This document shows positions 31,797-37,566 of a DNA stretch of 64,000 nt, in pieces. The notes beneath the pieces were generated by a model that saw only the letters and a list, made by a program, of their open reading frames with translations, was not told where the DNA came from and did no database searches. The DNA comes from an uncultured Tenacibaculum sp. Its GTDB lineage: Bacteria; Bacteroidota; Bacteroidia; Flavobacteriales; Flavobacteriaceae. The stretch spans positions 186,001-250,000 of the forward strand of contig CANMIL010000002.1 in assembly GCA_947497895.1 (NCBI GenBank), given 5' to 3'. The first letter of the stretch is position 1, and every line of letters starts with the position of its first letter. The position numbers and the translations under genes were made by a program.

Positions 31797-33227
31797 ATGA
31801 GAAAGATATTTTTATCTACCCTATTTTGGGGTATACTTTGTTTACAAGTTGTAATTAGTCAAAATTCGGATCAACATTCAGGTGCTAAAAAAGAAGATTT
31901 TTTAGAGAGAAACATTAATAACGTTTTTTTACCTTCTATAGTCAAGGATCAAGAAGGAGGAAAACATAAAAATGCGATGGATGTTTTAAATGATTTGTTT
32001 AAAACTAAAAATCTACAACTAAAATATCCAGAAAGCTATTCTAAACTAAAGGAGCGCCAAATTGTTAGTTTGTTTGCTTTAGGTAGAGATAAAAAAGCTA
32101 TAAATACTTTCAATGAGATTTTACCATTAAAAGAAAGGATTAGAGATTTAGAAGGCCTTAGTTTTCTTCATTCGGAAATGAGTAATTATTACTTATCTCA
32201 GAATAAAAAACAGCAAGCAAAATTTCATGCCATTAGCGCAGCGAATAATGCTCTGAGAACAAAAGACAAGGAATTACAATTTAAAAAAATAGAGTTTTTA
32301 CTTACTAACTTCCAGAAAGATGGTTTTAATGGATATTTCAAAAAATATACTCAGTTAAAAGAAGAATTAGTTCTTAAAGTCAGTGAATCAGAGGAAAGTT
32401 TAGATAGAGCAAATCATCTGAATTTTGAAAAAGAAAGGTCCAATAAGAAATTAATAGAAGAGGCGAAACTTTTAAACCTCGAAATAGAAAAGCAGAAGCA
32501 TCAAAAAACAGTTATAGGATTGATAGCTGTAATCAGCTTGCTCGCCTTGTGTTTTGTTTTATTACTATTTACTAAAAAGAAAAGAAAAATATTTCAAAGT
32601 AATGAAATTGAAAAGGAAAGAGTAAAATATGAGGAACGAGATAAAATTGCTCAAGAACTAAAAGGATCTGTCTTAACGAATCTACATGGAATAAGAAGAA
32701 ACGCCGAACTATTCAATTTAGGTTTAGAAAAAGGCGATTTGGAGAAATATAAAAGCTTTCTGAATGATTTGGAGAGTTTGGAAAATGAACTTGATAAATT
32801 TTCAGATGATTTTATTACTTCAATAAAACAAGATTTCAATATATCGATCCATCAGTTGTTTTATAAAAAAAGTAAGGAAGGTAATTTTACTTATGATTTG
32901 GAGCTAGACGATAAGAATTGCGAAGGTTTAGAAGATGAATATTTAAATATCATTTATGCTACCTTACAAGAATTACTTCAAAATACGTTAAAACACGCCA
33001 AGGCAACGAAGGTAAAATTGAGTATTAAAAGAAGCAAAAATGATGTTTTCTTGAAATACAAAGACAATGGCGTAGGCTTTAATATGGACAACCAAGCAAA
33101 CGGAATAGGACTTAAAAACATAAAATCAAGGGTTGAAAAGCTACAAGGAGAGTCATCTATATTTTCAAAACCAGAAAAAGGGATGCAGGTAGAGATAAAG
33201 TTGCCATTTGTTTTTGAGAGTGTTTAA
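31797..33227 (+). CDS. Histidine-kinase-like protein lacking the conserved phospho-acceptor His
   Basis: ATPase domain QELLQNTLKHAKATKV, DNGVGF, GIGLKNIKSRVEKLQG; DHp motif reads ERDKIAQELKGSVLTNL where HisKA_3 has ELHD; one TM segment. Confidence 0.88.
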   Translation: MRKIFLSTLFWGILCLQVVISQNSDQHSGAKKEDFLERNINNVFLPSIVKDQEGGKHKNAMDVLNDLFKTKNLQLKYPESYSKLKERQIVSLFALGRDKKAINTFNEILPLKERIRDLEGLSFLHSEMSNYYLSQNKKQQAKFHAISAANNALRTKDKELQFKKIEFLLTNFQKDGFNGYFKKYTQLKEELVLKVSESEESLDRANHLNFEKERSNKKLIEEAKLLNLEIEKQKHQKTVIGLIAVISLLALCFVLLLFTKKKRKIFQSNEIEKERVKYEERDKIAQELKGSVLTNLHGIRRNAELFNLGLEKGDLEKYKSFLNDLESLENELDKFSDDFITSIKQDFNISIHQLFYKKSKEGNFTYDLELDDKNCEGLEDEYLNIIYATLQELLQNTLKHAKATKVKLSIKRSKNDVFLKYKDNGVGFNMDNQANGIGLKNIKSRVEKLQGESSIFSKPEKGMQVEIKLPFVFESV

Positions 33228-33268
33228 ACTGTCTATTTGTTTATGAGCTAGTGTTTTATTGAATAAAA

Positions 33269-33286
33269 AATGACAAAAATGTCATT
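33269..33286. promoter_or_regulatory. Perfect inverted repeat upstream of the 42-aa ORF
   Basis: AATGACA-AAAA-TGTCATT. Confidence 0.45.
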
Positions 33287-33394
33287 AAAGATTGAAACTA
33301 CCTCGAAAACAATCGAAAAAATGGTTAAAATGTTTTGATTTATAAGTTAAAACCTTAATTTTAGTAAACAATAATAGACTTAAAAACATATAAA

Positions 33395-33523
33395 ATGAAA
33401 AACGGTTACACTTTTAAACTAGAAACAATAAAATTAGGAGGAGGTAGTGATGTACCAACTCAAGGAGGAGATACTACTGGAGGAGGAAGTGGAGGAAGTG
33501 GAGATGGCGAAGGAGGCAAATAG
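33395..33523 (+). CDS. Candidate 42-aa Gly-rich micropeptide
   Basis: MKNGYTFKLETIKLGGGSDVPTQGGDTTGGGSGGSGDGEGGK*; own intergenic region upstream and terminator downstream, between two kinase-like genes. Confidence 0.6.
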   Translation: MKNGYTFKLETIKLGGGSDVPTQGGDTTGGGSGGSGDGEGGK

Positions 33524-33544
33524 CACTTAACTTAATAAAGTATA

Positions 33545-33581
33545 AAAAGAAACCTATTTTTGATAAAATAGGTTTCTTTTT
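33545..33581 (+). terminator. Rho-independent terminator
   Basis: AAAGAAACCTATTTT-TGAT-AAAATAGGTTTCTTTTT. Confidence 0.8.
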
Positions 33582-33639
33582 ATATCTGCGTAAATTGTAT
33601 TTGAATATATGTTATTTTTACACAGTTTTTCCTGAAACC

Positions 33640-36967: not shown

Positions 36968-36970
36968 CAG

Positions 36971-37045
36971 TATCACTCATCAAAAGTGAGCGGATAATTT
37001 AAGGGGAAACAAACCTTCTGGGGATTCAAACTGGAAGGTTTTTTT
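36971..37045 (+). ncRNA. Candidate sRNA 4
   Basis: Near-identical to sRNA 1; terminator 3' arm altered (CTGGAAGGTT) but still pairs. Confidence 0.7.
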
Positions 37046-37275
37046 GTATTTATAGTTTATATGTTACTAAGAAACTAAATAGTAATTCTTCTCCTCTCAT
37101 CAGAAAACATAAAAAGCTTCTTTCTAATACTATCATCTTAAGTATAAGTTTTACAGTTTGTTTGTTAAAGTGTTTAAAATCAGTGTTTTTTATTGGTTTT
37201 ATTTTCCGTTGTTTAATTGAGAAATAAAAAAGAATCCTTTTTAGAGGGACTTTTTTTTAGAAAAGTCACAAAAAG

Positions 37276-37340
37276 CGGAAAAACACAAAATATATAGCGG
37301 TTTTCCCCTTTTTTGTGTCTGATTATCAGTGGTATATTTG
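37276..37340 (+). promoter_or_regulatory. Promoter unit 5 (upstream of the 33-aa ORF)
   Basis: CGG at 37276 and 37298, TTTTCCCC, TATATTTG at 37333-37340. Confidence 0.75.
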
Positions 37341-37393
37341 TAGTGTTGTTTTTTTAAACACAATAATTCAAGGGAAATTTAAATTTTATTACA

Positions 37394-37495
37394 ATGGGAA
37401 AATTATTACTAAAAAAAGTCAATGAAGCATTTGGTAACTTGTTAGCAGCATTAGCTGAATTTGGAAAAGGAGCAAGTTATGCTTTAAGACACTAA
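37394..37495 (+). CDS. Candidate 33-aa cationic amphipathic micropeptide
   Basis: MGKLLLKKVNEAFGNLLAALAEFGKGASYALRH*; between a recognisable promoter and a terminator. Confidence 0.68.
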   Translation: MGKLLLKKVNEAFGNLLAALAEFGKGASYALRH

Positions 37496-37528
37496 GAAGA
37501 CTGATCTAACCAAATCAATCATTTAAAA

Positions 37529-37566
37529 GACCTTTCAGGAAACATTTTCTGAAAGGTTTTTTATTT
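37529..37566 (+). terminator. Rho-independent terminator after the micropeptide
   Basis: ACCTTTCAG-GAAACATTTT-CTGAAAGGTTTTTT. Confidence 0.85.

Follow-up and report, generated by a model that had tools for sequence, protein, structure and literature searches.

Response regulators (RRs) that drive several redundant small RNAs (sRNAs) are textbook in Proteobacteria. In the GacS/GacA-RsmX/Y/Z and BarA/UvrY-CsrB/C systems, a NarL-family RR controls redundant sRNAs whose unpaired GGA-type motifs mimic mRNA leaders, and in LuxO-Qrr1-4 one RR governs several redundant sRNAs that share an invariant unpaired seed. The Qrr RNAs rely on a sigma54-dependent NtrC-type RR together with Hfq. The staphylococcal Agr system joins an RR (AgrA) to a regulatory RNA (RNAIII) and to short cationic amphipathic peptides (PSM). 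For Bacteroidota, no described counterpart of RR-driven redundant sRNAs was found in the literature searched or in Rfam, nor did that literature yield a description of an sRNA array in Tenacibaculum or Polaribacter. The nearest described flavobacterial sRNA, by description only, is Rfp18 of F. psychrophilum, which is needed for precise protease expression; the excerpted report mentions no two-component or array link (PMC9723704). Here, we analyze an apparently undescribed regulatory system with an sRNA/peptide array that can be traced through about 100 species in two abundant marine genera and offers a clear candidate binding-site code. It adds an unannotated 33-aa peptide family and a candidate opposing sRNA family, and makes testable how sRNAs act without Hfq or CsrA and why sRNA genes multiply beside their regulator.

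The window, a stretch of 64,000 nucleotides from an uncultured Tenacibaculum sp., carries on its + strand, between glpD and glpK, a kinase paralogue, a 42-aa Gly-rich ORF, a TPR histidine kinase, an RR and six promoter units (Table 1). The parts named in the original prediction are there: the mini-ORF, a TPR histidine kinase with Pfam matches to TPR_1 and HATPase_c (HisKA_3 staying below threshold), an RR gene overlapping it by 8 bp (35465-35472), and five units in which no ORF lies between start and terminator, followed by a sixth that encodes the 33-aa peptide MGKLLLKKVNEAFGNLLAALAEFGKGASYALRH. The kinase-like gene at the upstream end was said to lack the H-box His. It matches HATPase_c (E 2.7e-11) with no HisKA match in a Pfam profile search, and the H-box, ERKQIAKALHDE in the real kinase, is ERDKIAQELKGS here, so the His is indeed replaced by Lys. 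The proposal that this pseudo-kinase and the mini-ORF are parts of the system did not hold, and we rejected both as core components: they are found only in the window's lineage, MAR_2009_124 and G003. Since sister orthologues retain the H-box His (ELHDG) and ELKGS occurs only in the window's lineage (window, L133, G003), the exchange is a recent local change and not a design feature. The position between glpD and glpK proved to be mere location; glp flanks occur in much of Tenacibaculum and are absent at Polaribacter loci, on which ground a functional link was rejected. Small Gly-rich peptide genes (MKNGYTFKLETIKLGGG...; MKNNYTLEEQALQFGGG...) lie between the two kinases in the window, L133 and the G003 locus L056, and resemble secreted or bacteriocin-like precursors.

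Table 1. Features of the locus in window coordinates, with C-rich sRNA-like genes elsewhere in the same genome
Feature	Position	Strand	Basis or remark
Accessory kinase paralogue	31797..33227	+	HATPase_c; H-box His to Lys; lineage-specific, non-core
42-aa Gly-rich mini-ORF	33395..33523	+	Homologues only in MAR_2009_124 and G003; non-core
Membrane TPR sensor histidine kinase, core	33640..35472	+	Pfam TPR and HATPase_c; H-box ERKQIAKALHDE
NarL/RcsB-type response regulator (RR), core	35465..36142	+	Phospho-acceptor set conserved
Promoter unit 1	36149..36217	+	Two CGG boxes 22 bp apart and TAnnTTTG
Putative sRNA 1, type 1 (GAATT...AGGGAGAAATTC hairpin, purine-rich linker, terminator)	36218..36310	+	Folding z -3.75; start estimated
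Promoter unit 2	36339..36407	+	CGG boxes and TAnnTTTG
Putative sRNA 2, type 2 (5' hairpin, exposed AAUUUAAGGGGAAA, terminator)	36408..36482	+	Folding z -2.94
Promoter unit 3	36527..36595	+	CGG boxes and TAnnTTTG
Putative sRNA 3, type 2	36596..36669	+	Predicted fold
Promoter unit 4	36715..36783	+	CGG boxes and TAnnTTTG
Putative sRNA 4, type 2	36784..36858	+	Predicted fold
Promoter unit 5	36904..36972	+	CGG boxes and TAnnTTTG
Putative sRNA 5, type 2	36973..37045	+	Predicted fold
Promoter unit 6	37276..37346	+	CGG boxes and TAnnTTTG
pep33 mRNA 5' leader: hairpin and TTCAAGGGAAATTTAAA, like sRNA core	37347..37393	+	Sequence/fold
pep33, 33-aa cationic amphipathic peptide gene	37394..37495	+	Homologues, median pN/pS 0.55
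Terminator of peptide unit	37524..37563	+	Predicted terminator
C-type genes, own genome	G000:C5:166512, 167025 (L370); C5:72079 (L381:2079)		C-rich, sRNA-like
C-type genes, own genome	C2:282216 (L360:12216); C2:57638/57854 (L352); C2:101315 (L355:1315)		C-rich, sRNA-like
C-type gene, own genome	C12:42 kb (L389:6927)		C-rich, sRNA-like

The RR combines a REC domain bearing the phospho-acceptor Asp with a C-terminal HTH, as expected of the NarL family; the phospho-acceptor set is conserved, with D60, T95 and K118 invariant. Its AF2 model (pLDDT 84.8) finds spr1814, RcsB and LiaR as best Foldseek matches. Assignment as a GacA/UvrY orthologue was rejected (PRK09483 scores 30.4 bits against a cut-off of 280), the fold being that of the wider NarL family. 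Among 168 genomes from the GTDB genus covering Tenacibaculum and Polaribacter, 102 have an orthologue, and a family-wide sample of 238 genera yielded orthologues in only three, own genus counted; in the closest named relative, Tenacibaculum sp. MAR_2009_124, the RR is 95% identical. With the RR directly preceded by a kinase orthologue at most of 80 loci, the pair is, judged by its sequence record, a conserved two-component system of Tenacibaculum/Polaribacter. At four Polaribacter MAG loci (L193, L195, L197, L198) the RR is present and no kinase orthologue was found upstream; three of the four have an sRNA unit.

All six units were predicted to share one promoter architecture, and they do: each promoter unit in Table 1 begins with CGG-N19-CGG, followed 31-32 nt further on by TAnnTTTG. 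The latter is a Bacteroidota promoter type described for F. psychrophilum (PMC9723704), and the promoters of the six units fit it; a generic E. coli sigma-70 scan was blind to them. In a search of 139 seed sites that permitted 25-36 nt between box 2 and TAnnTTTG, 131 sites had 31 nt and the other eight 32 nt. The two boxes repeat directly (TTGCGGAAA...) at an interval of 22 bp, or two helical turns, and box 2 lies at about -46, a position that would suit a class-II activator. An element scattered through the genome without linkage to the kinase/RR pair would have spoken against the original prediction. Instead, the pattern CGGAAA-N16-CGG-N4-CCCC (equivalent to CGG-N19-CGG-N4-CCCC) matches the 5.01-Mb genome perfectly at exactly six places, every one of them at 36149-37563, and the reversed control pattern has no match.

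Co-occurrence in relatives, proposed at the outset as a check, points the same way. Of the 102 genomes with the RR, 87 contain a relaxed two-box pattern, as against five of the 66 that lack the RR (Fisher p 4e-25); the site totals are 224 and seven, respectively. When 83 RR loci, mostly of 12-17 kb, were scanned with a weight matrix, 232 sites fell downstream on the RR strand, none on the opposite strand and one upstream, the last at a locus from a genome with two RR copies. At 77 of the 83 loci at least one unit follows directly after the RR. The window's genome also holds two paralogous kinase/RR pairs, which were considered as carriers of similar units and have none. Taken together, co-occurrence, downstream position and the unit-less paralogous pairs back the proposed tie between RR and array, and we consider it very probable that the RR controls the two-box promoters. 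A further CGG-N19-CGG site with one mismatch (G000:C3:19561; L023/L277) precedes what may be a basic ORF of 45 aa, itself upstream of a large RHS-like gene, and is possibly another regulon member.

Array size ranges from one unit, in most Polaribacter, to 14-15 in G003 and G002; in the window, units 2-5 are tandem copies of 188-189 bp with 79-100% identity. The putative sRNAs span 69-140 nt, have terminators and fall into types. In type 1, proximal to the RR, a hairpin that carries GGG(G/A)A within or close to its loop is followed by a purine-rich linker and then the terminator. In type 2, AUUUAAGGGGAA or AUUUUAGGGGAUU lies exposed between a 5' hairpin and the terminator. Stems vary among species and the G motif stays: GGGG/GGGA precedes the terminator in 154 of 158 units, against 29 expected. 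As RNAalifold on MAFFT alignments of the unit types gave no consensus structure, sequences were folded individually and compared with shuffles. Compared with dinucleotide shuffles, type-2 5' hairpins were more stable (mean z -1.94, with 86% below -1), G-runs in the units had a higher mean unpaired probability (0.65) than other G residues (0.49), and the folds predicted for the window copies leave the core unpaired. A type-2 covariance model at E<1e-6 finds 33 genomes, 32 of them with the RR; matches near E 1e-4 across the genus were counted as terminator noise. In Rfam, only two tRNAs in the window exceed the gathering score, all matches to the array being sub-threshold.

The peptide of the sixth unit, pep33, belongs to a family of 42 distinct homologues, exactly 33 aa long in 44 of 48 cases, with net charges of +1 to +6 and helical hydrophobic moments mostly above those of same-residue shuffles. 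A median pN/pS of 0.55, with values below 1 in 97% of pairs, indicates that pep33 is coding. The gene occurs in 45 of 168 genomes, 42 of which have the RR. The pep33 mRNA leaders run from a hairpin through AAGGG(G)A and an A/T stretch to the ATG, the same layout as in the sRNAs. In Polaribacter, with its single unit, pep33 was not seen, so the peptide cannot be the sole output.

Because the sRNAs thus reproduce a co-regulated mRNA's leader without its ORF, they suggest themselves as decoys. We prefer a reading, with an even chance of being right, in which the RR drives an array of leader-mimicking decoy sRNAs plus pep33, and C-rich RNAs are the best candidates for what is titrated. The TPR kinase, going by its family, would phosphorylate the NarL-type RR; the RR, as geometry and co-occurrence suggest, would bind the two CGG boxes that immediately precede the core promoter, turning on the adjoining array. 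The products would be the pep33 mRNA and several small RNAs that copy its leader without the ORF and most likely titrate whatever binds AAGGG(G)A leaders, at a dose set by array size.

The original prediction likened the locus to Gac/Rsm and LuxO/Qrr. The likeness stands for the layout, an RR with several redundant sRNAs, and fails for homology. The CsrA model (PF02599) has no match in the genome, with E. coli, B. subtilis and T. maritima controls matched, and the Hfq model (PF17209) has none either; CsrA and Hfq were accordingly rejected as sRNA partners, and for the same reason the system is neither Gac/Rsm nor LuxO/Qrr. In their predicted folds the array sRNAs do present repeated GGA motifs at unpaired positions, as Gac/Rsm-type RNAs do; unlike those, they stand in tandem beside the RR, have their own shared two-box element and share a regulon with peptide genes. 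A sigma54-activating NtrC-type RR as in LuxO/Qrr was rejected given the NarL/RcsB/LiaR-type fold and the TAnnTTTG promoters, which, with no Hfq found, set the locus apart from that system. Agr would offer a parallel if the RR controls the sRNAs together with the 33-aa amphipathic peptides, whose genes lie under the shared two-box element; unlike in Agr, the RR is not of the LytTR type, sRNAs and peptides form separate units, and no homology was found.

The empty CsrA and Hfq searches imply that the titrated factor would be another protein or an RNA. A search for the core complement revealed a family of C-rich sRNA-like genes (C-type; Table 1), dispersed in the genome and characterized by TAnnTTTG promoters, C-runs in the loops of hairpins and terminators and, upstream of several, an ACTnCA-like repeat; some share the 5' end GTGTAATTA. 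The C-runs of two loci are kept in relatives. In a survey of 864 kb (17% of the genome), whose regions were partly picked around known matches, ten entries (eight loci) among 34 predicted intergenic short transcripts had at least two C-runs, and only three had at least two G-runs, one being a tRNA and one a trans sRNA copy. Some C-type genes hold 11-12-nt complements of the AAGGG(G)A core. The RNA at C5:167.0 kb is complementary to the tandem sRNA core over 11 nt and, at a separate terminator-loop site, to the pep33 leader over 12 nt (AGGGAAATTTAA; shuffle P 0.005, one of eight tests). For C-type RNAs 1-3 the core match is circular, since the complement itself led to their discovery; the RNA at C5:72.1 kb was found via its C-runs instead and is complementary to the tandem core over 10 nt (P 0.0125). 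Complementarity of the first-unit (type-1) sRNA to C-type RNAs is weak, 8 nt at best. Another putative C-type sRNA (CAGACCTAATTTCCCCTTAAAGTTAGGTCTG) is conserved between two genes that look Crp/Fnr-like by eye in four Tenacibaculum genomes (L317, L318, L320, L322), with the core complement in its terminator loop and a TTAACATATGTTAA palindrome upstream.

These complements modestly favor a model in which C-type RNAs would bind AAGGG(G)A leaders and RR-driven G-type RNAs would relieve them, pairing leading to peptide derepression. RepG of Helicobacter pylori, whose target is a G-repeat within an mRNA leader (PMC8295292), offers a parallel in that the C-type RNAs face G-run leaders with C-runs in hairpin and terminator loops; its sequence is unrelated, and RepG is not known to be sponged by an RR-driven array itself. 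More tentatively, the G-rich array and the scattered C-rich sRNAs may form opposing sets that pair without CsrA or Hfq and jointly set translation of the leader-matched amphipathic micropeptide, array copy number serving as an evolvable dose knob.

The same leader motif could instead be read by a protein. Offering AAGGGGA/AGGGAGA in loops or single strands, the sRNAs would sequester a non-CsrA translational regulator in the manner of CsrB/RsmZ, and the excess of the motif over expectation fits this, as do the multicopy dose logic, the motif's presence in peptide leaders, and the retention across unit types and clades of mainly GGG(G/A)A, purine-rich tail and terminator while stems change. We nevertheless think it unlikely: the genome yielded no CsrA and no candidate protein, and complementary C-rich RNAs would be superfluous to a pure protein sponge.

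Nor do we find it probable that the sRNAs pair directly with mRNAs as Qrr RNAs do, an exposed UUUAAGGGGAA seed meeting C-rich mRNA sites and the peptide being a separate RR output. That seed is invariant and predicted to be single-stranded, complementary sites occur at mRNA ends (several 3' UTRs and, in G003, a gene whose ATG is immediately preceded by TTCCCCTTAAA), and the intergenic count of CCCCTTAA is the highest of 420 permutations in the surveyed 864 kb, a rank biased upward because the regions were partly picked around known matches. Yet direct pairing leaves the sense core in the peptide leaders unexplained, the longer seed is missing from type-1 sRNAs, Hfq was not found, and seed counts outside known sRNAs resemble the reversed control. 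A predicted direct sRNA target is the secreted-protein gene at L336 (G003:C5:2685611), whose short 5' leader has TTCCCCTTAAA directly before the ATG.

That the array is a passive tandem-repeat expansion from the peptide gene, its ORF-less units being functionless decayed remnants, would account for the near-identity of units 2-5 and for copy numbers that vary widely among species, but is highly improbable given invariant promoter geometry and core, ORF-less units retained in Polaribacter where no peptide copy was seen, and trans copies conserved beside another gene.

A point against the preferred reading of decoys and pep33 is that CGG boxes are missing from some trans sRNA and some trans peptide copies. 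Trans type-2 copies follow a gene whose protein has an SSB-like tail end in several species, the present genome included (C6:271152), and the copy at G000:C5:156689 (L008, L278) has a TAnnTTTG promoter and no CGG boxes. A trans pep33 copy lies at G000:C2:624586-624684 (L265), with equivalents in many genomes (L266-L276, L279); these copies have no CGG promoter, and most keep the GGGA leader, which speaks for the decoy reading. Also against the preferred reading, one genome with no RR orthologue, G398 (L242), still retains a trans sRNA whose first CGG box is degraded, possibly a remnant after loss of the system. In three species (L316, L319, L321), an sRNA-like element combining the type-1 loop TTGGGGA, the type-2 core TTTAAGGGGAA and a terminator lies just upstream of a secreted-protein gene (GGGDWYANPTALP) that appears DUF4159-like by eye.
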